From NCBI GenBank assembly GCA_030710605.1, contig CP092879.1, positions 45,079,151-45,143,150 on the forward strand: DNA of 64,000 nucleotides, given 5' to 3'. Within the stretch, counting starts at the first letter, position 1. Every line of letters starts with the position of its first letter. The notes below the pieces were generated by a model, which saw only the letters and a program-made list of their open reading frames with translations, made no database searches and was not told the DNA's origin. Below, in pieces: positions 9,039 through 58,797 of the stretch. The stretch comes from Cordylochernes scorpioides. Its lineage: Eukaryota; Arthropoda; Arachnida; Pseudoscorpiones; Chernetidae. The position numbers were made by a program, and so were the translations under genes.

Positions 9039-9039
9039 C

Positions 9040-11402: not shown

Positions 11403-13920
11403 CCAAGTTGTTTTTATTTTGTCTTCTGCTTTCGAGCGAGTAGGTCTAGAACACATTCTCTCTGAATTTTCTCATTGTTGGTGGATGAAACAGCGCCAGT
11501 GATTATTTTGGCCGCTTTTGCTTGAACACTGTCTAGTCTTATTTTTAGTGATGAGCTTGAGGGAGCCCAGACCGGTGTTGCATATTCCATTATCGGCCTT
11601 ATTAAGGTGGTATATGTTGTTCTGAGAATTCTGGGTTTTGCTCCCCAATTTGTTCCACATAGCCTTCTCAGAATGTTTAGTTTTCTGATAGCTCTATTTG
11701 AGGTGCTAATTATGTGTTCTGAAAATTCCAATTCCTCATCAATAATAATTAAAATAATTCTGTTGACATCTTGTCAATACATGCACAGTCTGCATTATTA
11801 AAAAAGATAATATGCATTATATACATTATGTACAATGAATATGGCGCCTCTTCCAGCGCTGCAGAGTTTGGTGGAGAATCGCCAGTGGGTCTCCAGCGAC
11901 ACCACGCATTTTGCGATCTACGATTAATACGAAGATCGCGTACTTCGCCGCTTAGGAGATGGTGATGGCGTGGTCCTCGAGACCAACTTGAAAGATCCAG
12001 GACTGCAGTATCACACCTAGGTATTATGGATTCCTAATTTTATCAATTATTTGTTTGTTTATGCTTATTTTTTGGTTATATTTATGCCTTTTTCCCTGTG
12101 AGTGGAGAAGACGCATAGGTTTGGTTTTATTGGGTTTATGCTCATTTGGAATTCCATTGCCCACTTCTCCAGTCCTCTCATTGATGTGTTCAATTTTTTT
12201 AACGAATTTTCTATACTGCTACTTGTGTGCCATATGGCTATATCATCTGCATAACAGGCAACCATTGTGTCTTCAGTGAGGTAAGGATGGATGTCGTTAA
12301 TATATAGCAGATAGAGTAGAGGACTGAGCACAGATCCCTGAGTTACACCAGTCCATGTTCTTCCTTCCTTGGAAAATTCTCCATTAACCCGAACCTTTAA
12401 CCTTCTTCCCCTTAAGAAGTCTGCAATCCATATTAAGGTTTTTCTCTTACTCTGATGTTGTGCAGCTTTTCACGTAATTTCTCCCTCCACACTCGATCAA
12501 AAGCTGAGGTCATATCAAGGAATATAGCCGTGGTCTTCTTTGGCGGTATTTCCTGGAAAGAATCTATTATTGATTGACAGAAGTAGAAAAGTTGATCAGT
12601 CGTACAGTGCTGGGATCTATAGGCAGTTTGGTAGAGGTTTATTTTATTATTGTTAGTGAGCCAGACTATGAGCCTAGAGTGGTTAATTCGTTCTGGTATT
12701 TTACAAAGTTTGCTGGTGAGAGCAATTGGCCGATAGTTCTTCTATTCCTTGGCATCTTTGTTTGGCTTCAGTATTGGCACTACAATTGATATCTTCCAAT
12801 TCTTTGGTAGTTTACCAGTTTGCCATGAAATGTTCAGTATTCGTAGGAGTTGATTATTAGCTTTGTCTTCAAAGTGTTTAATCATTTGACCAAAGATTAG
12901 ATTATCTCTTGGTGATCTCTTGGATATTTTATTGATAAGTTTAGCTCATTCAGTGGGAAGTCTCTCGAGAAAATATCTTGTTGATGGAAGTTTCTTGCTT
13001 GTTTAACTAACTGGTTTATATTATTTTTAGAGTCCTGTCTTCATTCGTATAGTTGAGTATGGAAGTGCTTGAAATATATTCAGCAATTATGTCAGCCATC
13101 TGTTTGTTCTCGTTCGCGCTGTTCTATTCATATCGGTTAGAGTATTGGAGGATTGGTGTTGGTTTTGATTGTTCTCTAACACTCTAATCATATTCCAGTG
13201 TTGGCTGTCCTTTCTTGGATCCATTTTTTCGCAGAATTCTGTCCATTTTTCTTGTTTGCATATTCAAATTTCTTGCTCTATTTTGTGACTAATTTCAATG
13301 AGTTCCTTTCTGTTTTCTTCTGTTTTATTTTTTAAGAAGTTCATTGATATTGTCTCTCTCTCTCTGATATCATTGCCTCGATATTGAGGGCCTTCCAGTA
13401 AGGTATCCACAGGGCTTTACGTCTACCTCTAGGTATCGATGCTTTTGCAGCTTTTGAAATGTTCGAAGAGAATTTTTCCAAGTTTTTGTCAAGCGTTCTG
13501 TAATTCAATTTTTCGTTGCGCAGTTCTTCAAGCTTTTCTGTGAATTTTTTTTCAAGTCGGCTTTCCTAAAGTTCCATGTTCTTTTATTCTAATGGACATT
13601 CTCAATTTTGAAGTTTAGGGTTGTTAAAATTGGTCTGTGGTCACTGATTGCACCTCTCAGGATTTTCCATTGTGTTGTGGGTGCGATGTTGTAATTTATC
13701 GCTGTGATGTCTATTGCGGATTCTGTGCCTGTGGACTTAGATAGGTAGGTGTTCTCTCCGTTATTTAACGGTGTAAGGTCGAGGTCGGTTAGCATGTTCT
13801 CAACTGCTGACTTTTGTTATCCTGGACAGGTGATCCCCAAATTGAACTTTTGGAGTTAAATTCGCCGAGTATGATTGTGATATCCGAAGACGCTTTACTT
13901 AATGTCTCTATTGTGTGTAC
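11403..13920 (-). pseudogene. LINE4 relic: endonuclease and RT
   Basis: The minus strand encodes an endonuclease part (13589-13977; ITIILGEFNSK, then AISDHRPIL), RT with a MLSPLLYLLYINDI box and CYADDIAIWH (12065-12331), and an RT C-terminal region (11414-11731). RT is interrupted at 11743-12006 by unrelated sequence. The endonuclease N-terminus is replaced by the mariner transposase at about 13920. The same junction occurs in composites B and C, so it predates their spread. Confidence 0.85.
11743..12006 (+). other. Non-LINE insert with ORF inside LINE4 RT
   Basis: This segment of about 265 bp sits exactly between the YLGVIL and DEELEF parts of the LINE4 RT. Its strand opposite to LINE4 carries an ATG at 11835 followed by a GC-richer, coding-like stretch (MNMAPLPALQSLVEN...). 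In copy A a TAA at 11925 breaks it; in copy B (51173-51437) the same place reads GAA and the frame stays open for 61 codons, the last few from flanking LINE4 sequence. I do not recognise the protein. A captured host exon is an inference. Confidence 0.55.
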
Positions 13921-14657
13921 CCATACAAAATTCAAAGATTTCACGAGCTGAAAGTTGGCGATTTTGAGATGCGTCAAGAATTCGCTGCATGGGTTTCCGG
14001 CAAATTGATATTGATGAAAACTGGCTGTCGAATGTTCTGTGGACAGATGATGCTCACTTTTCTCTAAACGGAGAATTTAACATTCAAAACAGTCGCATTT
14101 TCGCAACAGAAAACCCTAGGATTTTTACTGAAATGCCACTTTACCAGCCTAGAGTTACAGTTTTGTGTGGGTTCACTTCTTTTATTATTGGGCCATTTTT
14201 CTTTGAAAAATCAATGGAAGAACTTTTAAAACCGTTTTTGTAACTGATGAACGTTATGTTCAACTTTTGAGAGAAAAGGGTATTCCCATATTGCAGGGCA
14301 AAAGCACTAAGCGAAATAACATTCATGAAAGATGGAGGACCTCCTCATATCTCCCGAGGTGCCAAACAATTGCTGAATGATACGTTCTGTGAAAATCGTG
14401 TGATAAGTCGCCACATTATATACCAGTGGCCTCCAAGATCACCAGACTTGACGCCTTGCGATATTTGGTTATGGGGGTACATTAAGTCGCGTGTTTATCG
14501 ATGCTGGCCTACCACATTGGCCATGTTGAAGGCTTCTATCAGATGGCACGTTTTATCAATTTCAACGGATATGTTATTTAATGCTGTCCATTCTTTCATT
14601 TATCGTCTGCAGGCGGTGATTGAGAATGAAGGGTGCCACATTGAGCAAGGATTGTGA
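13921..14657 (+). pseudogene. Mariner/Tc1-superfamily transposase, N-terminally truncated
   Basis: The DDE catalytic half is recognisable: LWTDDAHFSLNGEF carries the first acidic residue, a KDGGPPHIS segment the second, and PRSPDLTPCD the third. By my count about 42 residues separate the second and third, wider than classic DD34D mariners. The N-terminal DNA-binding half is gone, replaced by LINE4 endonuclease sequence. Frameshifts near 14235 and 14310 break the frame. It ends in CHIEQGL at 14657. This would be the cut-and-paste enzyme of the element, here non-functional. Confidence 0.85.
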
Positions 14658-15348
14658 CCTAACACAAGAGAGAAGGCAGTTACCTCATGTGTTATATAAG
14701 CCGCCATGTATTATATTATCTACCAATATTTTGCAGCTCTTTGTGTTGGGATATGGGGATAATAAATGCTGTCCTCACATCTTGACTCTTTTTTTTTTTT
14801 GTGAACAGTAATATTTTGTTTGTCATTTGCTCACATATTATGTCGTGCAAACCAGAGTGTTATAACTTCTCGAATAACACTGGTACACACAATTTTTCCC
14901 CTTATGTTTAGTTTTCGCTTTTCGCTCATTAGAAGAAATAGCATAAGGAATATTTTCTGTACACCAATAACTTTAGAAATTTTGTGAAAAAAATAATACA
15001 AAATGATTTTACTACCACATTTTTCAACGCAAAAGGTCGATTTAAAAATTATTTTTATTTGAGGGGACACATTTCTTAAAATTGTGTACAGTATAATAAA
15101 CAATGATAACATTTGACAAGCCCATAGGATATTTGGAATAAAGTACGACAAATATATTTTGTCACTCCCCTCTATATTTCATTTCATTGTCAAGAAACTA
15201 CACATTTCTTAGAGCAAGAAATCCTATTAATAGTGCCATCATAATTTTTGGTACTATATTAACATTTCAAGAATTCGTGAATTGATATCAGCAGTGTTTT
15301 TCAAACATTCAATCTATTTCACAAAACCCCATATAAAATATAAATATT
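14658..15348. other. Mariner 3' non-coding region
   Basis: This AT-rich interval between the transposase stop and the right inverted repeat is shared with composites B (about 47830-48566) and C (28591-29378). The ORFs across it have no recognisable domain. I see no gene. Confidence 0.7.
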
Positions 15349-15745
15349 TTTGCTACATGTTTTAATTTGCATTTACCTATTTTACATATCTCTGATTGTA
15401 TTTGAAAATCGTTAACCAATTCTTCATACTTTTGGCGAAGTGGTGTTTTATTAATTTGTTATTTGATATTATTAGGGTTCTTTCCTGGTATTCAAAAAGG
15501 AAAAATACGTGTCGATCAGTTATATTTTTCAATTTATCAAACAATTTGGCCGCTGAATCTCTGATTCTGGTGGAGCGCCATCTAGCGAATAAAGTTGTAA
15601 CTAAAATCAATTTCGAAAATTTCATTATTTGCCATAAAAAATCCCATTGCATCCTGAACACAATGGTGTTTACCGCATTGCTCTAGCGCAAATATTCGCG
15701 GAGTTATTAATTTTTAAAGTTGTGCGGGACTTTTGGATCACCCTG
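15349..15745. repeat. Right terminal inverted repeat of composite A
   Basis: Reverse complement of 4385-4782, ending GGACTTTTGGATCACCCTG at 15745, followed by the TA duplication. Confidence 0.9.
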
Positions 15746-27336: not shown

Positions 27337-27601
27337 ATTTTGTGACTAATTTCAATGAGTTCCTTTCTGTTTTCTTCTTTTTTTTTTATTTAAGAAGTTC
27401 ATTGATATTGTCTCTCTGAAATCATTGCCTCGATGTTAAGGTTCTTCCAGTAAGGTATCCACAGGTCTTTACGTCTCCTTCTAGGTATCGATGCTTTTGC
27501 AGCTTTGGATATGTTCGAAGATAATTTTTACAAGTTTTTACCAGCGTTCTGTAATTCAATTATTCGTTGCACCGTTCTTCAAGCTTTTCTGTGAATTTAT
27601 T

Positions 27602-28075
27602 TCAAGTCAGCTTTCCTAAAGTTCCATGTTCTTTTATTCTGTTGGACATTCTAATTTTGAAGTTTAGGGTTGTTAAAATTGGTCTGTGGTCACTGATTGC
27701 ACCTCTCAGGATTTTCCATTGTGTTGTGGGTGCGATGTTGTGATTTATCGCTGTGATGTCTATTGCGGGTTCTGTGCCTGTGGACTTGGACAGATAGGGG
27801 TTCTCTCCCTTATTTAACGGTGTAAGGTCGAGGTCGGTTAGCATGTCATCAACCTGCTGACCTTTGTTATCCTGGACAGGTGATCCCCAAGTTGAAATTT
27901 TGGCGTTAAAATCGCCGACTATGATTGTGATATCCGAAGACGCTTCACTTAATGCCTCTATTGTGTGTACCCATACAAAATTCAAGGATTTCACGAGCTG
28001 AAAGTTGGGGATTTTGAGATGCGTCAAGAATTCGCTGCATGGGTTTTCCGGCAAATTGATATTGATGAAAACTGG
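27602..28075 (-). pseudogene. LINE4 endonuclease relic in copy C
   Basis: The minus frame carries ITIIVGDFNAKISTWG and AISDHRPILTTLNF, endonuclease motifs shared with 13589-13977. It fuses to the mariner transposase at the same point as in composites A and B. Confidence 0.8.
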
Positions 28076-28593
28076 CTGTCGAAGAGTTACAGTTTTCTGT
28101 GGGTTCACTTCTTATTTTATTATTGGGCAATTTTTCTTTGAAAAATCAATGGAAGAACTTTTAAAACCGTTTTTGTGACTGGTGAACGTTATGTTCAACT
28201 TTTGAGAGAAAAGGTTATTCCCATATTGCAGGGCAGACAAGCACTAAGCGAAATAACATTTATGAAAGATGGAGAACCTCCTTATATCTCCCGAGGTGCC
28301 AAAAATTACTGAAGGATTCGTCCGGTGAAAATCGTGTGATAAGTCGCCACTTTATATACCAGTGGCCTCCAAGATCACCAGACTTGACGCCTTGCGATTT
28401 TTGGTTATGGGGGTACATTAAATCGTGTGTTTGTCGATGCTGGCCTACCACATTGGCCATGTTGAAGGCTTCTATCAGATGGCACGTTTTATCAATTTCA
28501 ACAGATATGTTATTTAATGTTGTCCAATATGTCATCTATCGTCTGCAGGCGGTGTTTGAGAATGAAGGGCGCCACATTGAGCAAGGATTGTGA
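27985..28593 (+). pseudogene. Mariner transposase relic in copy C
   Basis: Starts as in copy A, but about 125 bp are deleted after the WLS codons (near 28080), removing the first catalytic Asp (TDDAHF in copy A). The PPRSPDLTPCDF segment and the terminal HIEQGL remain. It cannot be active. Confidence 0.8.
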
Positions 28594-29389
28594 CTTATAC
28601 AAGAGAGAAGGCAGTTACCTCATGTGTTATATAAGTTGCCATGTATAATATTATCTACCAATATTTTGCAGCTCTTTGTGTTGGCTTATGGGGATAATAA
28701 ATGCTGTCCTCACATCTTGACTCTTTTTTTTTTTTTTTTTTTGAACGGTAAATTTTTATTTGTCATTTGCTCACATATTATGTCTTGCAAACCAAAGTGT
28801 TATAACTTCTCGAATAACACTGGTACAAACAATTTTACCCCTTATGTTTAGTTTTTAGCTTTTTGCTCATTAGAAGAAATAGCATAAGGAATATTTTTCT
28901 ATACATCAATAACTTTAGAAATTTTGTGCAAAAAAAAAAAAATAATACAAAATGATTTTATTAACCACGTTTTTCAACGCAAAAGGTCGATCTAAAAATG
29001 ATTTTTATTTGAGGGGATACATTTTCAAAATTGTTTACAGTATAATAAGCAATGATAACATTTGACAAGCCCATAAGATATTTGGAATAAAGTACGACAA
29101 ATATATTTTGTCACTCCCCTCTATATTGCATTTGTTGGATCATGTCTAATATCCAGTTAAATAGTCAAGTGGCGCGAATCAGTCAAGATACTACACATTC
29201 CTTATAGCAAGAAATCCTATTGGTAGTACCATCATTATTTTTGGTACTATATTAACACTTCAAAATATCGTGTATTGATATCAGCAGTTTTTTCCAACAT
29301 TCAATCTATTTCACAAAACCCCATCTAAAATATAAATATTTTTGCTACATGTTTTAATTTTCATATACCTATTTTACATATCTCGGATT

Positions 29390-30392
29390 CCAGTTCCAGT
29401 TCAAAAATAACTTTATTAGGTGCCGCTCAAAAAGAGCAACCTAGCTTATGATATTAACAATGAATTATATGTACACGTTCTTCACATTGACAGGGTATTC
29501 ACATCTCTACAAGGTTAGAGCGTGGCGGGCGGTCTTTAGATCGGTGTGTTCTCTTTTCTAATATGTTCTGTTATTTTTTTTTTTTTCTTTAACGTGTTTT
29601 TTCTTAAGATTTTTCCATTTTTCTACATTTGTTCTCAATCGATATAGGAGTTGCCTTGGCTTTGGTTTCCTTCTCTTCAGTTCTTGTTTGTAGTTACAGG
29701 CTTCTCTAAATGTAATATTTTCGAGATTTTCAGATTTATCGTAAAAGTTGAAAGCTTGTTTTATTATGAAATCATTATATTTTCTAAATTGAGGTCCTTT
29801 CTGATGATACTACTTCTGACAAACCATGGGGCACCTATTATTTTCTTTAATACCTGGTTTTCGAAACTTTCGAATTTTTTCAGTGTAGTTTTGTTTGCGG
29901 TTATGAAGACTGGGTGGCCGTAGGTTAGGATTGGTCTTATAATAGACGTGTATATGGTACGTTTGCAGTGTAGGGATAGTTTGCTCTTGCTCCCTAAAAG
30001 TAGTGCTAGTCGGTGCTGGGCTGCTTTTGCGAGGTTTATTCGGTTTTGCACGTGTTCTTGGAAGGTCAGGTGTTGATCAAGGATGACGCCCAGGTAGCGG
30101 ACGCTCTCCTTCCATTTTATGGATTCATCAGGGAAGCCTAGATCTTCTAAGGGCTTCTTCACTTTTAGTCTTTTGTCTGAGAAGAGTACAGCTTCGGTTT
30201 TTTGTGGGTTCAATTCAACCCGCCATTCGTTGCACCAAATATTAACGAATACCAGGGCTTCTTGAAGTTTGAGATAGATGGTATCGAAGTTGAAGGCTGA
30301 GACTAGAGTTGCGGCGTCGTCTGCGTATAGATGTAGGGACATTCCTTCGGGGCAAGGGTAGTCATCAATAAAAATATTGAAGAAGGTGGGGG
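29390..30392 (-). mobile_element. Jockey-like LINE, 5' truncated, inserted in copy C
   Basis: The 11-bp sequence TATCTCGGATT flanks it (29379-29389 and 30393-30403), a target duplication expected from target-primed reverse transcription. The minus-strand frame 29764-30342 (192 codons) begins at the YADD box (HLYADDAATL) and runs through the RT thumb (VRYLGVILDQHLTF). The 3' end has an AATAAAG signal and ends in short GGAACT repeats rather than poly(A). Upstream RT and endonuclease are lost. Confidence 0.88.
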
Positions 30393-30779
30393 TATCTCGG
30401 ATTGCAATTAAAAATTGTCATCCTATTATTATACTTTTGGCGAAATGGTGTTTTATTAATTTATCATTTGATATTATTAGAGTTCTTTCCTGGTATTAAT
30501 AAAGGAAAAAACGTATCGACTATTTATATTTTTCAATTTATCAAACAATTTGGCCGCTTAATCTCTGATTCCGGTAGAGCGCCATCTAGCGATTAAAATT
30601 GTAACTAAAATAAATTTCGAATTTTTCATTATTTGCCATAAATAAATCCCATTGCATCTTGAACACAATGGTGTTTACCGCATTGCTCTAGCGCAAATAT
30701 TCGCGGAGTTATTAATTTTTAAAATATTGCGGGACTTTTGGATCACCCTTTATTTATATATCTATACTAGCAGATGTAC

Positions 30780-34480: not shown

Positions 34481-35321
34481 TCTACTTATATATTTGCCTT
34501 ATTCTGTCTGTCTGTTTGTCTGTCTGAAGCTCACGGATGGGATTTTTCATAACCATCGGTGGTTCAATGGTAGAATGCTCGCCTGCCACGCGGGCGGCCC
34601 GGGTTCGATTCCCGGCCGATGCATTTTTTTTTTTCTTTTTTTTTACAATTTTTAAAACTCATTTATATATTATACAAGAATGACATCCACGGCGCCAATT
34701 TATAATTGTAACGAATAGTATTTGAATAAAAGCATTTAATCGGGTAAAACCGGGCGTTGCCCGGGTCATTCGTATATAATAATTGTATAAACGAATGCAA
34801 GACAAAATCACCGCGAATGTTTCTTTTTTTTAAGGCAATTTCTTTTTAAGGCAATTATCGTTATTTATCGTTAATTTTTGTTTCGTATTGAAAAAAAAAA
34901 CGATATGGTGCCTTCAAAAAATGATCTTTATTACTATGCAGTTTTCTATTTAGTCAATATACCTAAGTTCATGTTGCAAATGTAATTATCTCTATCGATT
35001 TAGTAGGTGAAATGCAAAAAAAAATCGACATGATGAAATCTTTATGAAAATTCACATTTTTATTTTTATATTTTCAAGACACACACAGTTTGGGGCGGGA
35101 CGTTTCACAAGAGAGACATCCACGGCGCCAATTTATAATTGTAACGAATAGTATTTTAATTAAAACATTTTAAAAACACACAGTTTGGAACGGGACGTTT
35201 CACAAGAGTGACATCCATGGCGCCAATTTATAATTGTAACGAATAGTATTTGAATTAAAACGTTTTTAAAATATATGCGCACTCGGGTAAAACCCGGGCG
35301 TTGCCCGGGCCATTCGTCTAG
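34481..35321 (+). mobile_element. Non-autonomous Helitron carrying tRNA-Gly (841 bp)
   Basis: It starts TCTACTTATA and ends with hairpin CCCGGGCGTTGCCCGGG, 8 bases, then CTAG, inserted between A (34480) and T (35322). Uninterrupted paralogous sites at about 43407-43432 and 26000-26015 confirm both ends. A second, internal Helitron-like 3' end (hairpin near 34745-34765) suggests terminator read-through during mobilisation. No Rep/helicase is present. Copy 2 (46735-58797) is split by mariner copy B. Confidence 0.88.
34553..34623 (+). ncRNA. tRNA-Gly(GCC)-like sequence inside Helitron
   Basis: A nearly complete tRNA-Gly: D arm, anticodon GCC, T arm with GGTTCGATTCC, and acceptor stem with six of seven pairs (CATCGG with CCGATG; the first pair is C-C instead of G-C). 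It is followed by a T run that could act as a Pol III terminator. It is embedded in a transposon, so I call it tRNA-derived; function is not excluded. In copy 2 a 97-bp deletion removes its 3' half. Confidence 0.75.
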
Positions 35322-38660: not shown

Positions 38661-38664
38661 TAAC

Positions 38665-40205: not shown

Positions 40206-40207
40206 GA

Positions 40208-46070: not shown

Positions 46071-46185
46071 TAAAATAAAAACATAAATCCTCCAGGGGAG
46101 AGATTCTTTTAAAAATATTTTTATTTAAAAATATCTCGAGCTTTCGGGCAAGTAAGCCCTTCTACGGGAGAAACTATTTTTTTTT
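46071..46185 (-). mobile_element. 115-bp Penelope-type mini-insertion
   Basis: ATAGAATAGTTGAT flanks it (46057-46070 and 46186-46199), and copy 1 at 33931-33944 has the site once, so this is an insertion made after the duplication. It carries the minus-strand motif CCGTAGAAGGGC...GCCCGAAAGCTCGAG seen in PLE1 and PLE2 ends. It has no coding. Confidence 0.8.
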
Positions 46186-47430
46186 ATAGAATAGTTGATA
46201 TTTATTCCGATAGATGGCGCAAGCCATCAGCAACTTTCAGTTGTACAATAAGGAGATGTCTTTTTCATAAAATATACTGGCTGTTATAAAAAAAAATTGA
46301 ACTATTATTTTAAAAAATAATAAAAATCTTTTTATAACAAATTTACTTTCAAATTCGATTCTAAAACGGTTACTTCCATTTGCAAGAGAGGTACACCAGA
46401 TAAATGTTACTGACTAAATATATACATAGAACATCAGGTAAAAATATTATTTTTAAAATAATTGTCTGTTTTTCTATATTTATTAGGTGACTTTTAAAGA
46501 AAAAGCACCAACAAGACAAATAATTTGTATTTCCTTTATTTTTTTTAACACCAGAATACTTATAAAAATAAACATCCATAAGGTTTATAATTGTTGAATA
46601 TTAATTAATGGGTAGTTAAAGAATTTTTGAAATAAACATCATTATTTCTAATAATTCTGATAATATATCTAATCCTATTAGCATTTTTAAAAAATAATTT
46701 TCTTTAAATAGTGACCGAAGCGCGCCCAGGAATATCTACTTATATATTTGCCTTATTCTGTCTGTCTGTTTGTCTGTCTGAAGCTCACGGATGGGATTTT
46801 TCATAACCATCGGTGGTTCAATGGTAGAATGCTCGCCTGCCACGCGGCGCCAATTTATAATTGTAACGAATAGTATTTGAATAAAAGCATTTAATCGGGT
46901 AAAACCCGGGCGTTGCCCGGGTCATTCGTATATAATAATTGTATAAACGAATGCAAGACAAAATCACCGCGAATGTTTCTTTTTTTTAAGGCAATTTCTT
47001 TTTAAGGCAATTATCGTTATTTATCGTTAATTTTTGTTTCGTATTGAAAAAAAAAACGATATGGTGCCTTCAAAAAATGATCTTTATTACTATGCAGTTT
47101 TCTATTTAGTCAATATACCTAAGTTCATGTTGCAAATGTAATTATCTCTATCGATTTAGTAGGTGAAATGCAAAAAAAAAATCGACATGATGAAATCTTT
47201 ATGAAAATTCACATTTTTATTTTTATATTTTCAAGACACACACAGTTTGGGGCGGGACGTTTCACAAGAGAGACATCCACGGCGCCAATTTATAATTGTA
47301 ACGAATAGTATTTTAATTAAAACATTTTAAAAACACACAGTTTGGAACGGGACGTTTCACAAGAGTGACATCCATGGCGCCAATTTATAATTGTAACGAA
47401 TAGTATTTGAATTAAAACGTTTTTAAAATA

Positions 47431-47830
47431 CAGGGTGATCCAAAAGTCCCGCACTATTTTAAAAATTAATAACTCCGCGAATATTTGCGCTAGAGCAATG
47501 CGGTAAACACCATTGTATTCAGGATGCAATGGGATTTTTTATGGCAAATAATGAAAAATTCGATTTTGATTTTAGTTACAATTTTATTCGCCAGATGGCG
47601 CTCTACCAGAATCAGAGATTCAGCGGCCAAATTGTTTGATAAATTGAAAAATATAACTGATCGACACGTATTTTTCCTTTTTGAATACCAGGAAAGAACC
47701 CTAATAATATCAAATAACAAATTAATAAAACACCACTTCGCCAAAAGTATGAAGAATTGGTTAACGATTTTTCAAATACAATCAGAGATATGTAAAATAG
47801 GTAAATGCAAATTAAAACATGTAGCAAAAA
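47431..47830. repeat. Terminal inverted repeat of composite B (transposase side)
   Basis: Starts CAGGGTGATCCAAAAGTCCC and pairs with 58347-58747. It holds an open frame equivalent to 15377-15661 of copy A. Confidence 0.88.
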
Positions 47831-48566
47831 ATATTTATATTTTATATGGAGTTTTGTGAAATAGATTGAATGTTTGAAAAACACTGCTGATATCAATACA
47901 CGAATTTTTAAAATGTTAATATTGTACCAAAAATTATGATGGCATTACTAATAGGATTTCTTGCTATAAGAAATGTGTAGTTTCTTGACTGATTGGCGAC
48001 ACTTGACTATTTAACTGGATATTTGTCATGATCCAACAAATGAAATATAGAGGGGAGTGACAAAATATATTTGTCGTACTTTATTCCAAATATCCTATGG
48101 GCTTGTCAAATGTTATCATTGTTTATTATACTGTACACAATTTTAAAAAATGTGTCCCCTCAAATAAAAATAATTTTTAAATCGACCTTTTGCGTTGAAA
48201 AAACGTGGTAGTAAAATCATTTTGTATTATTTTTTTTCCACAAATTTCTAAAGTTATTGGTGTACAGAAAATATTCCTTATGCTATTTCTTCTAATGAGC
48301 GAAAAGCGAAAACTAAACATAAGGGGAAAAATTGTGTGTACCAGTGTTATTCGAGAAGTTATAACACTCTGGTTTGCACGACATAATATGTGAGCAAATG
48401 ACAAACAAAATATTACTGTTCACAAAAAAAAAAAAGAGTCAAGATGTGAGGGCAGCATTTATTATCCACATATCCCAACACAAAGAGCTGCAAAATATTG
48501 GTAGATAATATAATACATGGCGGCTTATATAACACATGAGGTAACTGCCTTCTCTCTTGTATTAGG

Positions 48567-49297
48567 TCACAATCCTTGCTCAATGTGGCACCCTTCATTC
48601 TCAATCACCGCCTGCAGACGATAAATGACAGAATGGACAGCATTAAATAACATATCTGTTGAAATTGATAAAACGTGCCATCTGATAGAAGCCTTCAACA
48701 TGGCCAATGTGGTAGGCCAGCATCGATAAACACACGATTTAATGTACTCCCATAGACAAAAATCGCAAGGCGTCAAGTCTGGTGATCTTGGAGGCCACTG
48801 GTATATAAAGTGGCGACTTATCACACGATTTTCACCGAACGTATCTTTCAGCAATTGTTTGGCACCTCGGGAGATATGAGGTCTTCCATCTTTCATGAAT
48901 GTTATTTCGCTCAGTGCTTTTGCCCTGAAATATGGGAAATACCTTTTCTCTCAAAAGTTGAACATAACGTTTACCAGTTACAAAAACGGCTTTAAAAGTT
49001 GTTCCATTGATTTTTCAAAGAAAAATGGCCCAATAATAAAAGAATGAACCCACACAAAACTGTAACTCTAGGCTGATAAAGTGGCATTTCTGTATATATT
49101 TCTGTTGCCCAAATGCGGCTGTTTTGAATGTTAAATTCTCCGTTTAGAGAAAAGTGAGCATCATCTGTCCACAGAACATTCGACAGCCAGTTTTCATCAA
49201 TATCAATTTGCCGGAAAACCCATGCAGCGAATTCTTGACGCATCTCAAAATCGCCAACTTTCAGCTCGTGAATTCTTTGAATTTTGTATGGGTACAC
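48567..49297 (-). pseudogene. Mariner transposase relic in copy B
   Basis: Two frames (48992-49297 and 48567-48896) carry VLWTDDAHFSLNGEF and PPRSPDLTPCDF. The first begins MYPYKIQRIHELKVG, a few residues more than is readable in copy A. The N-terminal DNA-binding region is missing and a frameshift separates the frames. Confidence 0.85.
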
Positions 49298-51765
49298 ACA
49301 ATAGAGACATTAAGTGAAGCGTCTTCGGATATCACAATCATACTCGGCGAATTTAACGCCAAAAGTTCAATTTGGAATCAACTGTCCAGGATAACAAAAG
49401 TCAGCAGGTTGAGGACATGATAACCGACCTTACACCGTTAAATAACGGAGAGAACACCTACCTATCTAAGTCCACAGGCACAGAATCCGCAATAGACATC
49501 ACAGCGATAAATTACAACATCGCACCCACAACACAATGGAAAATCCTGAGAGTGCAATCAGTGACCACAGAAATTGAGGATGTCCATTAGAATAAAAGAA
49601 CATGGAACTTTAGGAAAGCCGACTTGAAAAAAATTCACAGAAAAGCTTGAAGAACTGTGCAACGAAACATTGAATTACAGAACGCTTGACAAAAACTTGG
49701 AAAAATTCTCTTCGAACATTTCAAAAGCTGCAAAAGCATCGATACTTAGAGGTAGACGTAAAGACCTGTGGATACCTTACTGGAAGGACCACAACACCGA
49801 GGCAATGATTTCAGAGAGAGAGAGACAATATCAATGAACCTCTTAAAAAAATAAAACAGAAGAAAACAGAAAGGAACTCATTGAAATTAGTCACAAAATA
49901 GAACAAGAAATTTGGATATGCAAACAAGAAAAATGGCAGAATTCTGCGAAAAGATGGATCCAAGAAAGGACAGCCAACACTGGAATATGATTAGAGTGTT
50001 AGAGAACAATCAAAACCAACACCAATCCTCCAATACTCTAACCGATATGAATAGAACAGCGAGAACGAGAACAAACAGATGGCTGACATAATTGCTGAAT
50101 ATATTTCAAGCACTTCCATACTCAACTATACGAATGAAGACAGGACTCTAAAAATAATATAAACCAGTTAGTTAAACAAGCAAGAAACTTCCATCAACAA
50201 GATATTTTCTCGAGAGACTTCACACTGAATGAGCTAAACTTATCAATAAAAAATTCCAAGAGGTCACCAAGAGATAATCTAATCTTCGGTCAAATGATTA
50301 AACACTTTGAAGACAAAGCTAATGATCAACTCCTACGAATACTGAACATTTCATGGCAAACTGGTAAACTACCAAAGAATTGGAAGATATCAATTATAGT
50401 GCCAATACTGAAGCCAAACAAAGATGCCAAGGAATATAAGAACTATCGGCCAATTGCTCTCACCAGCAAACTTTGTAAAATACCAGAACGAATTATCCAC
50501 TCTAGGCTCATAGTCTGGCTCACTAACAATAATAAAATAAACCTCTACCAAACTGCCTATAGATCCCAGCACTGTACGACTGATCAACTGTTCTACTTCT
50601 GTCAATCAATAATATATTCTTTCCAGGAAAAACCGCCAAAGAAGACCACGGCTATATTCCTTGATATGACATCAGCTTTTGATCGAGTGTGGAAGGAGAA
50701 ATTACGTGAAAAGCTGCACAACATCGGAGTAAGAGAAAAACCTTAATCTGGATTGCAGACTTCTTAAGGGGAAGAAGGTTAAAGGTTCGGGTCAATGGAG
50801 AATTTCCAAGGAAGGATGAACATGGGCTGGTGTAACTCAGGGATCTGTGCTCAGTCCTCTACTCTATCTGCTATATATTAACGACATCCATCCTTACCTC
50901 ACTGAAGACACAAAGGTTGCCTGTTATGCAGAAGATATAGTCATATGGCACACAAGTAGCAGCATAGAAAAATCGTAAAAAATACTGAACATATCAATGA
51001 GAGGACTGGAGAAGTGGGCAATGGAACTCCAAATGACCATAAACCCAATAAAACCAAACCTATGCGTCTTCTCCACTCACAGGGAAAAAGGCATAAATAT
51101 AACCACAAAATAAGCATAAACAAACAAATAATTGATAGAATTAGAAATCCATAATACCTAGGTGTGATACTGCAGTCCTGGATCTTTCGGGTTGGTCTCG
51201 AGGACCACGCCATCACCATCTCCTAAGCGGCGAAGTACGCTATCTACGTATTCATCGTAGATCGCAAAATGCGTGGTGACGCTGGAGACACACTGGCTAT
51301 TCTCCACCAAATTCTTCAGCGCTGGCAGAGGCGCCATATTCATTGTACATAGTGTATATAATGCATATTATATTTTTTTCAATAGTGCAGACTGTGCATG
51401 TATTGACAAGATGTCAACAAAATTATTTTAATTATTATTGATGAGGAATTGGAATTTTCAGAACACATAATTAGCACCTCAAATAGAGATATCAGAAAAC
51501 TAAACATTCTGAGAAGGCTATGTGAAACAAATTGGGGAGCAAAACCCAGAATTCTCAGAACAACATATACCACCTTAATAAGGCCGATAATGGAATATGC
51601 AACACCGATCTGGGCCTCCCTCAAACTCATCACTAAAAGTAAGACTAGACAGTGTTCGAGCAAAAGCGGCCAAAATAATCACTGGTGCTGTTTCATCCAC
51701 CAACAATGAGAAAATTCAGAGAGAATGTGTTCTAGACCTACTCGCTCGAAAGCACAAGACAAAAT
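49283..51765 (+). pseudogene. LINE4 relic in copy B
   Basis: It carries an endonuclease (ITIILGEFNAKSS), RT (50294-50746: ALTSKLCKIPERII, IFLDMTSAFDRVW) and an RT C-terminal part (51449-51709). It is interrupted at 51173-51437 by the foreign insert. The YADD box reads YAED near 50930, a change of a catalytic residue in this copy. Confidence 0.82.
51158..51437 (-). other. Foreign insert with open 61-codon frame in LINE4 (copy B)
   Basis: The minus-strand frame 51343-51158 (MNMAPLPALKNLVEN..., LRRLGDGDGVVLETNPKD) is open; its last few codons belong to LINE4. The paralogous frame in copy A has one in-frame TAA. The protein is not recognised. Confidence 0.5.
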
Positions 51766-54110
51766 AAAAACAACTTGGATCGGCACTTCGAAAACGAGGA
51801 ACCAGAGGACGAGATCTCTCTGACCACTTGTGGTTTGGTTGATCCGCCCTTTTCTGAGAATGAGGTGAAACTGACGGCTTTCAAGTTCGGGAAAAGGAAA
51901 TCTCCTGGTCCCGAAGGGATCGATAACACGGTCGTGAAAGCCCTGGTAAGGATGCACCCATCGCTTCTTTCCAGGTTATTCAATAGGTGCCTGGACACTG
52001 GTACATTTCCTGAGGCATGGAAGGTTGCCCGAGTAATGCTTCTCGAAAGGTCTGGTAGAAAGGGTAATTCTCCTAATGATTATCGTCCGCTTTCTTTACT
52101 AGTGTGTCTAGGTATGGTCCTGGATAGCCTACTAGCTCAGCGACTGAAGCATTGGCTAGGGAAGGGAAGTCCACAACCACAGCTCTGAACGAGGTGTTAG
52201 AGGGGGTTGAGATGGACTTAAATAAGGGTGCTTGGGTTCTTTTCGTGGCCCTGGACATTGATGGCGCGTTCAACTCCATGAACTGGAACAAGCTGATGAG
52301 AAATTTGATGGACATGGGTTGTCCTGATAATTTGTGCAGCTTGGTTCGTGACTTCCTGAGGGATAGACGGATTAGCCTCAGTTTTGGTGGGCAGAAGTTG
52401 GAAAGAAACTGTGCTAGGGGTTGCCCCCAGGGCTCTTGCTGCGGACCTATTCTGTGGAATATCCTGGTAAACACCGTTTTCCAGGAGGAGCTCCCTGAGG
52501 GAGCCAGGCTGGTTCTCTATGCTGACGACCAGTTCCTCATCATTGAGGCTGCTTCGAGAGCGAAGGCTGAGAAGTGTGTTGAAACTTCTCTCCAAATTCT
52601 CTCGATCTGGGCCCATGACTCTGGCCTTAAGTTCAATGTCTCCAAAACTAAAGCCCTCAGCTTTAAGCCTAGGGACATAAGACCTAAAAGGAAAGGGATC
52701 AAATGGGAACACAAGCCGGCTATCCGGATGGAAGGACGGAGGGTAGCGTTGGTCAATAGGATGACCATCCTGGGGGTGATCATTGATGACAAGATGGGTT
52801 GGCAATACTAGGCGGAGGAGATGGTGGCGAGAGGCAGGGAGGCGTTGTGCAGGCCTGTCCTGGTTGGCTCTCAACAGGGGGGGGGGGGAGAAGGAGGGTA
52901 CTATTTTTAGGAACCTCTGCCTCTCCTGTGTCGAACCAATCTTGCTATATGCTTCCGGGGTTTGGTGGCGCCGAAACAGGGATCAGAAGGTGGCAACAAC
53001 TCTAGAGAGAGTGCAGAGGACAGCGGCACTCAGAATCACAGGGGGATATCGCACTACCAGCAGTGAGGCCTTTTTGGTCCTCGCTGGGCTTATTCCCCTG
53101 GGATTGAAACTAGAGGAGGAGACCATCAGACAGAAGATCTGGAAAAACAGGGAAGATGCCCTGGGACTTGAAGTGGGGGCCCTGGAATCGAAGAGGGATC
53201 CAAGGAAGCCTCTGCAGTGGTTGCCAAAGTGGAATTGGAGTCCTGGAGGGCCGACAGGGATTGGCACGGAGGTTTTCACTGATTGTAGTAAGTCTGGAAC
53301 CAATACTGGAGCTGGGGTAGTGATATTCACTAATGGAGAGCTGATCTTCCAAGAAGGTTTAACACTCAGAGTGGACGAATTGGTCTTTTCAGCCGAGCTG
53401 GTTGCGATCAGGGTAGCCCTCAGAGTGTGTGCCGAGAAAAACTTCAGCCCGGACCGCCTCTATTCAGATTGTATGTCGGCCCTCGTCGCCATTAATCTGG
53501 AGAAAGGGCAACTCGCGCATCAAATAATCCAGGAGCTGGAGATGATGACGCGGGCTCCGGAGCTCCCTTGGTTTAGGAGACACAGCCTCATCGAAGGTAA
53601 TGAGTTCGCAGACAGGATCGCTAAGGCAGGATGCTTTAGAGGTAGATCACTGAGGACCCCAGTGATCAAAAAAGAAGTTTATAGGAGGATCAGGGGGCAC
53701 GTCCAGGACTTATGGTTGGACAGATGGAGGAACAGTGTGAAGGGAAGAGAGGTATTCAATGGGGTAAACAACACCCAAGTACCTCTGTAAGGTAATGTCC
53801 CACAAACTCATTAGGGTAGTTCGAGACATGGGCTCTTCCCCAAGTCTCCACAGATTTGAAATTAAGAGAAACCCTGATTGCGTCTATGGAGAAAAGGATG
53901 TGAATGCACGCCACTACGTCTTGGATTGTCCAAGGGTAGTGGGTGTGCAGGAAGAGAGAAGGAGGGCGAGGGGCGTGATCGAGAGTAAGCTGCTGAGAAA
54001 TCACAGCAAACTTCTTGAGAAAGCCCACGACGTGGAGGCTGAGCTTTTCCTCAGCTGTGAGTGAACAGAGTCCACCGGTGGCCGCCTCCCCGCGGTCCAT
54101 GCTGGACACA
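51766..54110 (+). pseudogene. LINE3 relic in copy B (R1-like RT and RNase H)
   Basis: Better preserved than in copy A. It has an RT N-terminus 51775-52188 (KRKSPGPEGIDN), RT core 52152-52811 (FVALDIDGAFNSMNW, GCPQGSCCGPILWN, LYADDQF), thumb plus RNase H 52783-53790 (EVFTDCSKSG, YSDCMSALVAI, IEGNEFADRIAKAG) and a C-terminal Cys/His tail 53795-54064. Three frame changes and a G run near 52878-52889 break it. Confidence 0.85.
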
Positions 54111-54114
54111 GTAG

Positions 54115-57100
54115 ATAGTTTCCTATTTTGCTATGATTAAAGGCCACCGGTATAGAAATCCTTCCAGACACGTTGTCTGGGAGGTAGTGTTTCCAGGTAC
54201 AATGTCCAAGCACTTGGATACCGTTACTTGGCTTATGAGTTGAACAGAATAGCAGCGAAGGGCATGCTTCGCATGCCGGCTTGTGGACCGAAAGGTCTGG
54301 GTGGCCATCTGCTTCTAGGGTACACCAACTGTGCTTAGGTGGGATCCTCCAGTTCTTGTTTATTTTGGCTACTGTTTCTATTTCTTTAAAAGTAAGTTTA
54401 TTTTTCTGTGGCAAGGGTTCTTTTGTGCCTTTTTTCGCTAGCGCATCAGCAGCTTCATTACCTTCAATGCTAACATGTAAGGGTATCCATTGAAGGTGAA
54501 TTTTTGAGGTATTGAGAGTTTTTGGAGATAACCAATTATGTTCCTGCTTACTTTGTCTCTAAGTTCCCCTGTGTGACTCAAGTGTTGTATGGCACTTCTA
54601 CTATCAGTAAGAATCCATATATCGTGATGTTTAATGTTTCTGATGGATTTTAAGACTTCATAGATGGCTATAAGTTCTGATCTGAAGACTGGGCAAGATT
54701 CTGGGTTTCTTCTGTTTATTTTCTCATTGCCATTTGTGGTTTTAATGAGAGAGCCACTGCTAGTGTGTCCCAACTCGTCTCTGCTACCATCGGTATAGAT
54801 AGTTATTGCATTTTTAGGAATTTTATTAATTATTTCTAATGATAATTGTTTTAAGTATTCTGGATTTTGGTATTGTCTGTTGATGGGTTCATTTAAAGTG
54901 GCATTAAAAATAACATTTTGTTAGTGGTTCGCATGGAGATATTTTTTAAGCTAAATAATATTTTTCCACTTTATATTTTGAAAATCCATTTCTTTTGGCC
55001 AGGTGGAGAGGGCCTTCTTTTTTGAGTCTTATATTGGGTTCCCAATTAAGTATGTAATTGAAAGTTCTGTGTTTGTTTTCATAACTCTTGATTTTGTTTA
55101 TTTATTTTGGCAGATTGTAGCTTATTCTATCCTTTAAGGGCATAATGTCTGCCTCGTAAAGTACAATATTATTAGGGCAGGTTTTTCGAAGACCTGCAAT
55201 AATTCTAGCTGCATTTAGTTGTATCCTTTCCAGTGTTTTTAGATTTGTTTCCAATGCTGTACCATAGATTTGATATCCATATTCCAAGATAGGTCTCATT
55301 AGAGATGTGTAATTTAATTTTAGTATTGTTGCTTCAGCTCCCCACTCTTCCTGAAATATATTTCAAGATTTTTAGTCGGTCTCTTCCTTTTCTAACAACT
55401 CCTTCGATATGCTTACTGGAGTTAATTTCTGGATCCAGGGTGTAGCCGAGATATTTAGGATGTTTATTATATTGCAATTGTTGTTCTTTCAGAATAATAT
55501 TTGTTCTTATTTTGTATAGTTTCTTATCGGTAGTAAAAAGACAGATTTCAGATTTTTGGGGGTTAAATTCTAATTTATGTTTATTAGCAAATTTTTCTAG
55601 GTGGAGAAGAGTCTTGTTCAAATATCTTTCAGCTTTTTTCCAGTTAGTGTTGCTGCTTCATAGAATAATGTCATCAGCGAAAAGTCCAATATTGGTTTTA
55701 TGTGAAAAATTTATTCTATGCCTAAATAAATAGGGTGAAGAGAGTTGGGCTAAGGATTGATCCTTGTGGTAATCCTTGGTACAATTTGAAGGTTTTAGAT
55801 AGAGTGCCATTATATTTGACCCTGATGTATCTATTTTTAAGGAAATCATTTTTCCAAGTGATAGCTTTTCCATCAATTTTGAAATGTTTGTATAATTTTG
55901 TAATTAACTTGTTTTTCCATACCTTATCAAAATCTTGTGTAAGGTCTAAAAAGCAGCTATGGTGTGGTTAGTAGGTTTTTTGTTTTGTGCATCTTTTACC
56001 TTTTGTGTGAAAAATAAGAGTTTGTCTATTGTCCCATGTCCTTTCCTAAATCCATATTGTTCTTCTGGTAGGAGATTTCTTGTGTCGGGGTGGTAGGTGA
56101 GTCGTCTGAGTATAATTTTTTCCGTTAATTTGCAGCAAATATTTGTTAGGGAGATAGGTCGGTATTTTTTTGGGTCATCAGCAGATTTGTCAAGTTTTTT
56201 AATGGGAATTATTGTTGCATTTTTACAGTCTTGAGGCAATTTTCCAGTTTTCCAGGAGTTATTGAAAATATTAAGAAGTCTTTCTTTGCCAATTTTGCCC
56301 AAGTTTGATTTCATTCGGCCATGGATTCCATCTGGCCCAGGAGTCTTGTTTAGGTCAGTGTTTTCTAATGCATAAGCTAGCTCTTTCATATTGATTTTTT
56401 TCATGGAAAATATTATGAGTGCTGGTGTCATTTTTACAGTCATGAATAATCTTTCAGGCCTTTTTTCAACCTTGATTTTACTACTTATTTGATATGAATT
56501 ACCTAAAAGATTGGCAGCAATTTTGTGATTAGTTGCTGGTGTACCATCTGTATTCTTAATCATATTTGTGTTTTCAGTTTGTGGCTGGACTCTGTTAATT
56601 TGTTTTGCCAAATGCCAAAATTTTGTATTTGGGTTTCTTGGGTTCAGGTTTTCACAAGTTTGTTTCCATTTTTCCCTTTTAACATTTACGTATAATCTTT
56701 TTATTTTTGCATTCACAATGTTCAGTTCAGTTCTACAATTTGTTTGGTTTTGGGTGCTCTTTTTTGTAGTTCATTTATTTTAGTTATAAGTGTTTGAATA
56801 TTTTTTGCCTGGTGTGTATAATTTGGAATCCATTTCTTAATATTACCTCTTGGTATTGAAACTGTGGATGCTTTAATAATGGTGTTTTCGAAAGATATCC
56901 AATTAGCCTTTTTGAAGTTCCAGAATTATTCTTAATTGAGCTGGTTTTGGTCTTGGTGCTAATTTCTATCAAATTAGGCAAATGATCACTTCCAATACTT
57001 TTTAATATTTGCTATTTGCATTTGTGGAAAATGTCAGGATAGTAAAAACTTATATCAAGGGCTTGTGCAGTATTATAGCTGTATGAATGATGGGTAGGAT

Positions 57101-57440
57101 TCCCATCATTTAAGCACATGATGGCATTGTCGTCAAATATGTTTGAAAGTATTTTCCCTCTTGGGTTTGGCGTGGAACATCCCCATAGTTGATGTTTGGC
57201 ATTAAGGTCACCTACAATAAGAGTTGTCTGTAAGAAATTGAGCCATTGTTCCATCGTCAATAAGTGTATTGTTTGGAGGGTGATACATATTGTATATGTT
57301 GATGGCTTTGTTTTGATTGAGGTAGACTTTGATATCTTGGGCTTCGAGGTCTAATGTGTTTGAAATATTAACGGCTATGTCCTCATAGTACAAATTCTTG
57401 ATTAAAAATGCTAGGCCACCCCCCTTTAACAGCATATACA
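54115..57440 (-). pseudogene. LINE2 relic in copy B
   Basis: Minus-strand frames run from an endonuclease (57208-57435, 57012-57260: VGDLNAKHQLWG) through RT (55946-56716: NKTPGPDGIHG, KYRPISLTNI) to RNase H (54438-54773: ILTDSRSAIQHL). It is truncated at the endonuclease N-terminus where LINE1 abuts, exactly as in copy A. Confidence 0.85.
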
Positions 57441-58170
57441 GATGGATCTTCAGACCTTACCCTGAGTTAACATAATACTGCAAGATAGAACACAGATCAA
57501 AATCAAAGAAGGAGCAGGACAGATTTCGTCAAACTTCACTTGTGAACTGACAGCTATCTGGAAAGTCCTTGATTTATGCCTTAACCAACCATCCCTGCAT
57601 CAAGCAGAAGGAAATTTAATATACAGCGACTCCATATCCGCTCTAGAAGCAATTCAGAAGGGCAATACTAAATTCACACAGAAAATACACTCGTTACTTA
57701 CCCAACTGGAACCATTGGAGAATAACTGCATTCTACAATGGATCCCTGCCCATGCTGGGATCGGGGGTAATGAAATGGCATTTGAATTGGCAAAGGAAGC
57801 CAGAAAGTTGAGCCAAAGGAAAGAACAAATGTCATTATTTGACGCTGATTCTTTGTCAAAATACAAGATAATTAAACAATAAATAAGAAAAGATCAAAAT
57901 GCGAAATAAACTCTGAGAGAAAAATGACAAAAGCCATAACAAGACTTAGAACAAAACACTATAAAGGAATGACAATACATCCAGATGGCACAATAACCTA
58001 TAGGGCATGCAACAATTGTACTGGTGTGGAACTTACACCTACCCACATATTCTCATAGCCAGCAATGGCCGCAGCCTTGCAGAAATTTGACATAGACCCA
58101 GAGCAGCAGCTTTACACACCCAAGATAGTGGACATTGCTGCTGCTGTGATGGAGATGCATGGATTCATCT
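57441..58170 (+). pseudogene. LINE1 relic in copy B
   Basis: Plus-strand counterpart of 5040-5725. RNase H sequence (ELTAIWKVLDLC, IYSDSISALEAI, WIPAHAGIGG near 57740-57770) is followed by the C-terminal HPDGTITYRACNN-like tail. Confidence 0.8.
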
Positions 58171-58346
58171 GAGGCTCTTTATTGGACACGACAACAACAA
58201 CGGCATTCCAGAGTAAAATAAATTATCAGAGATAGATACATATTTTTTAAATGAATTAAAATATAATCGATACTGAGAGAGAGTTGATTAAAAATATTAG
58301 GAATTTATTATCTTCGGAAACACAAACCGTATCTAAAATATCATTT

Positions 58347-58747
58347 TTTTTTTTGTACATGTTTTAATTTGCATTTACCTATTTTACATATCTCTGATTG
58401 CATTTAAAAATTGTTAACCAATTCTTCATACTTTTGGCGAAGTGGTGTTTTATTAATTTGTTATTTGATGTTATTAGGGTTCTTTCCTGGTATTCAAAAA
58501 GGAAAAATACGTGTCGATCAGTTATATTTTTCAATTTATCAAACAATTTGGCCGCTGAATCTCTGATTCTGGTAGTGCGCCATCTGGCGAATAAAATTGT
58601 AACTAAAATCAATTTCGAATTTTTCATTATTTGCCATAAAAAATCCCATTGCATCCTGAACACAATGGTGTTTACCGCATTGCTCTAGCGCAAATATTCG
58701 CGGAGTTATTAATTTTTAAAATAGTGCGGGACTTTTGGATCACCCTG
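58347..58747. repeat. Terminal inverted repeat of composite B (LINE1 side)
   Basis: Reverse complement of 47431-47830, ending GGACTTTTGGATCACCCTG. It carries a 94-codon open frame (58379-58663). Confidence 0.88.
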
Positions 58748-58797
58748 TATATGCGCACTCGGGTAAAACCCGGGCGTTGCCCGGGCCATTCGTCTAG

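Follow-up and report, generated by a model that had tools for sequence, protein, structure and literature searches.

Copies A and B in the window, the 64,000-nucleotide stretch analysed here, very probably belong to a single 11.3-kb mariner-type element with thousands of insertions, which became loaded with LINEs and moved whole into TA sites, presumably with the aid of a helper in trans. As originally predicted, B (47431–58747; 11,317 bp) contains the parts of A (11,361 bp) in the same order, and aligns with its reverse complement over the full length at 94.7–96.4% identity by block. Differences (3.85% mismatches over 11,220 aligned bases) are scattered over the whole length of the element, and the alignment breaks off at the element ends. 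In the window self-comparison, the two copies have the same ends and unrelated flanks. Both terminate in CAGGGTGATCC/GGATCACCCTG with TA flanking each, and the window contains five matches (≤2 mismatches) to the end with its TA, compared with 0 in 100 shuffles. A truncated copy, C, had previously been overlooked.

4385..15745, minus strand: copy A, loaded element in reverse orientation, TA on both sides
27337..30750 (right end approximate), minus strand: copy C, truncated, same LINE1 content
29389..30393, about 1 kb: extra sequence in copy C, including a reverse transcriptase fragment

The inverted ends of B enclose a broken mariner part and three LINEs, two of them nested inside the first.

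47429..47430: TA of the target-site duplication on the left of B; the empty site has one TA fewer
47431..47831, plus strand: left terminal inverted repeat, about 401 bp, 97.8% match to 58747–58349
47832..49294, minus strand: mariner part, transposase gene 3′ region and C-terminal part, broken; coding pieces within 48567–49294
49295..51757, plus strand: LINE1 5′ part (endonuclease, reverse transcriptase), RVT_1 E 6.2e-14; inner boundary approximate
51758..54200, plus strand: LINE2, inserted within LINE1, with reverse transcriptase (RVT_1 E 5.5e-25) and RNase H (RNase_H E 8.8e-6); boundaries approximate
54200..57390, minus strand: LINE3, nested, with reverse transcriptase (RVT_1 E 8e-11), RNase H (RNase_H E 9.6e-7) and, by eye, endonuclease; boundaries approximate
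57390..58200, plus strand: LINE1 3′ part, with RNase H (RNase_H E 8.6e-10) and a tail of ACA repeats; inner boundary approximate
58201..58348, minus strand: mariner 5′ region including the transposase start codon; matches the L059 5′ region upstream of MPSLQDK
58349..58747, minus strand: right terminal inverted repeat, matching the left end
58748..58749: TA of the target-site duplication on the right of B, from the end-plus-TA match and the empty site

The transposase-bearing relative L059 matches the mariner part of B as far as the 49294/49295 junction, where B reads GGGTA/CACACAATAG. Only the start codon and the C-terminal part of the transposase gene are left, with LINE between them, in line with the earlier description of this transposase as broken. 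Pfam does not recognise the broken transposase pieces of the loaded element; across ten pieces scanned from copies A, B and C, matches above cutoff are to reverse transcriptase, RNase H and endonuclease only, and three pieces are matchless. Inner direct repeats like those of Sleeping Beauty were looked for in the ends and not found above shuffles. At eight columns in the ends both A ends agree against both B ends, a hint of homogenisation between ends.

A and B are insertions into TA sites, and each has an empty counterpart with one TA fewer; that of A had not been noticed before.

35271..35274: empty counterpart of B, in the sister tandem unit, AAAATATATGCG at 35272/35273
3945..4191, minus strand: empty site of A, in an inverted duplication of the A flanks, joined at 4067–4068, one TA fewer

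The unit enclosing B is a tandem duplication (31911–40525 versus 44040–64000, blocks 98.8–99.7%), and comparison of the filled site, AAAATA[B]TATATGCG, with the empty AAAATATATGCG shows that one TA was added. The empty site in the sister unit agrees with the proposals that B is bounded by TA opposite an uninterrupted duplicate and that its movement, in one block, came later than the duplication around it. The assembler may have set two haplotypes in series as this 99.5% tandem unit, in which case B would be a presence/absence polymorphism and the insertion reading would be unaffected. Helitrons end at the 3′ side in a hairpin followed by CTRR/T, and the element around B ends, by eye and at its 3′ end alone, in a hairpin and CTAG/T, as expected if B lies inside a Helitron as proposed. 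The original prediction would be refuted by a single segmental duplication of A and B with shared flanks and no separate insertions. Both copies do lie amid tandem and inverted duplications, and contig C21 has four deletion derivatives of 6.67 kb with common flanks that are indeed duplicates of this kind. However, the A–B match stops at the element ends, the flanks are unrelated, and A and B are each missing from the sister copy of their own flank with one TA fewer, so that this explanation fails for the two copies and is extremely improbable.

Searches of the window's own genome (2.62 Gb) place both copies in a large population. The inverted-repeat search suggested earlier, run with short ends, yields 13,038 occurrences of the 25-bp end with TA; TA precedes 13,038 of the 13,101 exact 23-bp ends (99.5%), with 0 for the reversed control. 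The left LINE1 junction, where LINE replaces part of the transposase gene, occurs at 3,022 places and the right at 2,394, each at ≤3 mismatches and with 0 in the control. Among the matches listed on contig C1, the two junctions form 39 co-oriented pairs within 14 kb, with a mode at about 8.98 kb, and only one neighbour lies in any other arrangement. Five more complete copies (11,313–11,385 bp) are 95.9–99.7% identical to one another and to A and B, and sit in unrelated flanks with TA present; a copy on contig C6, interrupted by an assembly gap, was left out when copies were compared. Together with a sample of 46 end pairs from one contig stretch, these copies make up the part of the proposed count of TA-flanked 11-kb elements that was carried out. 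Fifteen of the 46 pairs are typed as loaded, 26 are not typeable with exact markers, and none falls in the 1.9–4 kb range of an unloaded autonomous element. One 11.3-kb end pair (L064) was considered as a third cargo type and rejected, its junction being unique and its insertion private to one copy.

The internal structure is shared across these copies. All 34 aligned copies have an identical left LINE1 junction, bar point differences; 27 of them were chosen by that very junction and seven by their ends or from the window. The right junction agrees in all 11 copies aligned there, of which four are segmental duplicates on C21. Frame-breaking lesions are common to at least 4 of the 7 full copies. 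Some LINEs are site-specific, and LINEs might conceivably have struck one site repeatedly, in many separate mariner copies. That both junctions, the nested order and the lesions agree across copies is an identical compound structure that refutes such strikes, which are the least credible explanation we considered. The copy tree is star-like, and nearest neighbours reach 99.91% identity over the loaded part, although its 27 junction-picked members are the best-scoring matches and bias it to young copies. A short mariner that jumped alone and later received its LINE-filled middle by gene conversion from a loaded copy would be favoured by long identical ends and by the homogenisation hint in the ends of A and B, but it has to contend with LINE1 junctions at thousands of places, with loaded end pairs where none has the unloaded size, and with this near-identity of the loaded part, and we consider it very improbable. 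The shared structure, the TA sites, the junction copy number and the near-identical copies in different flanks mark the B-type as a non-autonomous transposon of mariner type, present in high copy number and amplified as a loaded unit with three broken LINEs inside. The same junctions in different flanks also uphold the earlier view that the LINE fragments were aboard before B transposed.

A relative of the B-type, 14.1–14.5 kb long, has two inverted transposase-bearing arms with ~10 kb of other LINE cargo between them. We call it a sandwich for its layout alone; its arms are incomplete elements, and the name carries no claim of descent. In sandwich copy D the inverted arms are 2,268 bp long and 95.0% alike, and no inner end was found. 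Among the 100 transposase markers listed there are 29 convergent arm pairs, and three neighbours within 12 kb are otherwise arranged. In many copies one arm still contains an open transposase gene of 368 codons, and the full-length frame is open in 60 of 112 scored transposase matches. Its product has an N-terminal HTH (DUF4817, E 1.5e-7, above its cutoff) and a sole PDB match, to the catalytic domain of Sleeping Beauty (E 0.0019), in an alignment that runs through the catalytic motifs. By eye, the catalytic residues are D164, D261 and D304, with 42 residues between the last two (D-42-D spacing).

The exact terminal bases of these relatives are the same as those of the B-type, so that the intact DDE transposase with matching ends sought in the original prediction has candidates in the open frames. 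The sandwich is the likely helper of the B-type in trans. The earlier idea that a related enzyme acted in trans fits the open frames and matching terminal bases, and stays a proposal about enzyme pairing. Another helper is possible because DNA identity of the open transposases to the B-type mariner part is only about 90%, with their ends at 90.9–92.5%. The B-type may instead have been moved by an unloaded mariner, now lost or rare, with the sandwich as a parallel passenger. This rather unlikely alternative draws on the 90% identity, on the 7 of 36 scored transposase matches on contigs C1–C5 that lie off the exact sandwich junction (29 lie at it), and on the 42 of 100 listed markers without an exact partner arm. 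Against it stand the 0 of 46 end pairs of 1.9–4 kb, the abundance of open transposases now, at 98–100% identity, and the recency of B-type copies, whose neighbours reach 99.9%.

With the sandwich as candidate helper, the history probably ran as follows. The ancestor would have been a Tc1/mariner element with inverted ends of about 400 bp, into which a LINE inserted, removing the N-terminal part of the transposase gene. Two further LINEs would then have nested inside the first, and the loaded block would since have moved end to end, in one piece and presumably by cut-and-paste, into TA sites, with transposase supplied in trans by a related same-ended element, for which the 14.1–14.5-kb sandwich is the best candidate. 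Evenly balanced, in our judgement, is the wider proposal that the sandwich mariner is the driving autonomous element and moves its 11-kb sister in trans, that loaded forms replaced the small parent, and that cargo was no limit and may have helped the spread.

Tc1/mariner elements are small, and large transposons of this kind are thought to be poor movers. Here versions of 11 and 14 kb have stayed mobile and reached thousands of copies while carrying dead LINEs. They also illustrate a route for a DNA transposon to multiply retroelement sequence, and with loaded forms at hand the question of mariner cargo limits becomes testable. The TA target-site duplication, the terminal inverted repeats common to copies, and the relative's DDE/D transposase with N-terminal HTH are those of Tc1/mariner elements. 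Polinton/Maverick elements have a 6-bp target duplication and a protein-primed polymerase B; the TA duplication here, and the restriction of Pfam matches in the ten pieces to reverse transcriptase, RNase H and endonuclease, do not fit that class. In the viral contigs scanned, the element end has 0 matches and the transposase fragment two pattern matches, neither a relative. The titles and abstract openings listed yielded no LINE-loaded or sandwich-type natural mariner; subscription literature lay mostly outside this scope, and absence in print is not claimed. The term DD42D has 0 occurrences in the part of the matching literature checked.

MITEs in general depend on a helper in trans. Like mariner MITEs and other non-autonomous derivatives, the B-type has no working transposase, but MITEs shrink whereas the B-type grew several-fold and yet amplified (PMC5490172, accessible text). 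Maize and rice MULEs are likewise DNA transposons struck by nested retroelements; there, nesting goes with lower MULE abundance, whereas here the loaded form multiplied (PMC3903597, accessible text). The aphid rosa (DD41D) and LTIR (DD40/41D) groups also have inverted ends and a D-D-D transposase with HTH, and complete elements in the table of that paper measure 1.3–2.4 kb, in contrast to 11–14.5 kb with LINE cargo here (PMC5490172). The rosa end AAGGGTGTCTCAAAAAG.. looks, by eye, like CAGGGTGATCCAAAAG.. here, but 42 residues separate the second and third D where rosa membership, as that paper defines it, requires 41. The LTIR group, with inverted ends of about 460 bp against about 400 bp here, is set apart by the spacing of 42 and by an unlike end sequence (PMC5490172).

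The closest architectural parallel is engineered. According to the accessible text of PMC4229213, activity of early Sleeping Beauty vectors falls exponentially with length, improved vectors carried up to 18 kb, and the 'sandwich' (SA) design is superior for cargos above 10 kb. The SA vector and the 14-kb relative are alike in that inverted transposon copies flank a long cargo and the inner ends are unused, which in the relative holds for architecture only. In contrast to SA as described there, the relative is natural, belongs to a different Tc1/mariner group, carries LINEs as cargo, lacks inner ends that SA has point-mutated, and can retain an open transposase gene in one arm (PMC4229213). The sandwich form appears to be a natural equivalent of this vector design, and its transposase is a candidate for carrying large cargo.

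Comparison of the window with itself aligns the two copies of the 11-kb LINE-loaded, mariner-type transposon (B-type), rc(A) and B, from end to end, with 3.85% mismatches over 11,220 aligned bases, distributed along the full length at 1.6–6.8% per 500 bp. The features concerned, and others observed beside them, are:

4385–15745: copy A
47431–58747: copy B, in reverse complement to A
1559–4191: inverted duplicate of A's flanks
1559–17497: inverted duplication of A's flanks with RT and GIY-YIG (Penelope-like); open 432-aa frame at 15866–17164
3177–3945: ~768-bp near-perfect palindrome in the left arm of that duplication, absent in the right arm
33149–33219, 33583–33651, 34553–34623, 45273–45343, 45708–45776: five Rfam tRNA matches in the tandem-unit repeats, three being tRNA-Gly GCC (ARAGORN)
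18716–20474: piece of a SOCS-box protein gene adjoining a 485-base assembly gap (19990–20474)

Both copies carry the same ends, CAGGGTGATCCA / TGGATCACCCTG, and are flanked by TA. The tandem sister of B's flank preserves the empty site AAAATATATGCG (filled counterpart AAAATA[B]TATATGCG), and the inverted duplicate of A's flanks holds, at rc(3945–4191), an empty site overlooked in the original prediction, GATTAACATATATAAATCG (filled counterpart GATTAACATA[A]TATATAAATCG). Relative to these empty sites, one TA was gained at A and at B. The end-to-end match, the TA flanks and the empty site bear out the proposal that the whole 11-kb composite transposed as one block into a Helitron, and the empty sister places the transposition of B after the tandem duplication, as had also been claimed; the observation is real and its interpretation correct. 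A and B were both inserted later than the duplications of their flanks. Since the duplication blocks are presently 97.6–100% identical, yet A and B differ by ~4%, loaded elements of no fewer than two source lineages were mobile. Should the tandem unit be two haplotypes that the assembler placed in series, B would be younger still. At eight columns of the terminal regions (47431–47831, 58349–58747, 4385–4796 and 15347–15745) the two ends of A agree with each other but not with either end of B, which hints at homogenisation between the two ends of one element.

The outer parts of the B-type are Tc1/mariner-like, comprising ~400-bp inverted ends and, on the minus strand, the 3′ region and C-terminal portion of a transposase gene. 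The gene is interrupted between GGGTA and CACACAATAG, the start of the broken element LINE1, whose ACA-repeat tail rejoins mariner sequence at the transposase start codon. The positions of these junctions indicate that LINE1 took the place of the gene's N-terminal part, and the transposase of B is broken, as predicted. LINE1 in turn contains LINE2 and a reversed LINE3, with approximate inner boundaries. In seven full copies, stops common to at least four of them interrupt the LINE frames. Counts of variable columns at the three codon positions are close to equal in some frames (22/19/17, 19/15/17) and less balanced elsewhere (41/34/27 and 35/37/49 for the two parts of LINE2, 14/4/9 at the LINE1 start). 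From the shared stops and these counts we read the cargo as already broken and evolving mostly neutrally.

The search covered the source animal's own genome (2.62 Gb, 24 contigs). An end search gave 209 first-look candidates, of which 40 were scored and ten fetched as stretches. Five are further complete B-types (11,313–11,385 bp) that have TA at their borders and unrelated flanking sequence, with identities of 95.9–99.7% to A, B and one another; one, on contig C6, is interrupted by an assembly gap; and the remaining four lie on C21 and are internal-deletion derivatives of 6.67 kb whose shared flanks mark them as later segmental copies. These derivatives, at C21:46.94–47.26 Mb (L017–L022, L025–L026), miss B positions 779–5465 within identical flanks, and this is a recent local segmental amplification. 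A junction search yielded 1,045 candidates, 40 of them scored and 30, including B, obtained as 3.4-kb loci; 26 of the 30 are collinear with B from about 150 to 3600, L051 matches partially, and L054, L057 and L058 are rearranged. A tree of 34 copies, built from 27 of these junction loci and the seven full copies, has a star-like shape; nearest neighbours reach 99.91% identity, and pairwise identities are 89.1–99.9% (median 98.2%). Its shape and near-identical neighbours suggest a recent burst that started from a few sources; the junction loci are best-scoring matches and so biased towards young copies.

Genome-wide, the 25-bp end including TA has 6,527+6,511 exact matches (reversed control 0) and the end without the TA requirement 6,560+6,541, so that 99.5% of these thousands of ends adjoin TA, in line with the expectation of TA-bounded insertion. 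The left LINE1 junction occurs 917+906 times exactly (25-mer) and 1,522+1,500 times at ≤3 mismatches (35-mer), the right 1,186+1,208 times at ≤3 mismatches (controls 0). Among the C1 matches listed (89 of 100 left, 100 of 100 right), 39 co-oriented left–right pairs lie within 14 kb, with a mode of ~8.98 kb, and one neighbour only is otherwise arranged. The first 100 ends listed (C1, 0.38–21.7 Mb) form 46 +/− pairs and eight single ends. Pair sizes have a median of 11.3 kb, with 19 of 46 at 11.0–11.5 kb, eight at 13–14.6 kb, one at 1.42 kb and none at 1.9–4 kb. Exact markers type 15 pairs as B-type (12 within the 11.0–11.5-kb class), and five as the sandwich form described below, and leave 26 untyped. 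As a rough figure extrapolated from this one C1 stretch, ~6,500 elements of such size would add up to ~70 Mb, a 2.7% share of the genome. A mariner-family copy at C1:10631750–10634300 (L064) has a private insertion with a Ty3-like RNase H, recognised by eye; its end-to-end size of 11.3 kb is coincidence.

The sandwich, in which two inverted transposase-bearing arms enclose other LINE cargo, was read completely in the L059/L060 pair (14,511 bp). Its arms, 2,268 bp and 95.0% alike, each consist of end, 3′ region, transposase gene and 5′ region; an inner end was looked for in these arms and not found. The central ~10 kb gives RT or RNase H matches in four of seven pieces scanned, and no part of it aligns with the B cargo at the DNA level. 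The left gene contains one in-frame stop. Two further copies, C1:7514700–7528830 (14,131 bp) and C13:83811000–83815100 (one side only), have cargo 98.4% identical to L059/L060 over 3.4–3.9 kb and one arm with an open 421-codon frame containing the 368-codon gene; in the C1 copy, the only one of the two with both arms read, the second gene is broken. This 368-codon gene is a candidate for the intact DDE transposase with matching ends that the original prediction proposed to look for. With the left L059/L060 gene as protein query, all 112 matches scored among 27,547 first-look candidates are ≥98% identical; 81 show no stop in the matched part, which alone is no proof of an intact gene because the query ends before the gene end (the query copy is an example), and 60 of the 81 have the full 421-codon frame. 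The transposase–cargo junction occurs exactly 148+180 times (control 0); the best 40 of 2,470 candidates are listed as 100% identical over 401 bp, 17 of them top-scoring, including the query copy, and 29 of 36 scored transposase matches on C1–C5 lie at this junction.

With ≤2 mismatches allowed, a transposase N-terminal marker absent from B-types has 1,664+1,691 matches, against 0 for the control. Among 100 matches listed there are 29 convergent arm pairs (21 spaced at 9.6–10.8 kb, two at 6.0 kb, six at 4.52 kb), with three neighbours within 12 kb otherwise arranged, and in 12 of 12 pairs with letters shown an A-form arm faces a C-form arm. The convergent pairs, arm forms and spacings indicate that the two-armed form is common, probably of single origin, and exists with smaller cargo too. 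The more closely spaced pairs, two at 6.01 kb and six at 4.52 kb, are perhaps earlier stages or deletion derivatives. Either a mutated partner or a single-armed element may account for each of the 42 listed matches without an exact partner.

The most likely course begins with a mariner insertion in which LINEs then landed; the loaded block, having kept two good ends, would have been moved whole by a relative's transposase. With its identical terminal bases, its open gene and the marks of a recent expansion, the sandwich is the best candidate helper. According to PMC4229213, the activity of early Sleeping Beauty vectors falls exponentially with length, and an engineered sandwich of two head-to-head elements is better at carrying large cargo; by analogy, the natural sandwich may profit from the same principle. 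Large cargo does not depend on this arrangement here, because the ends of B-types are single and ordinary, and B-type junctions outnumber those of the sandwich. The TA target, inverted ends, DUF4817 HTH and catalytic domain with a weak alignment to Sleeping Beauty (E 0.0019) place the family in Tc1/mariner. The LINE-loaded and sandwich-type mariners are a variant form, the sample holding no element of small autonomous size. The catalytic spacing of the open sandwich transposase, D-96-D-42-D, differs from rosa DD41D and LTIR DD40/41D as these are defined in PMC5490172; by end sequence and long ends, rosa and LTIR are the nearest of the described groups considered.
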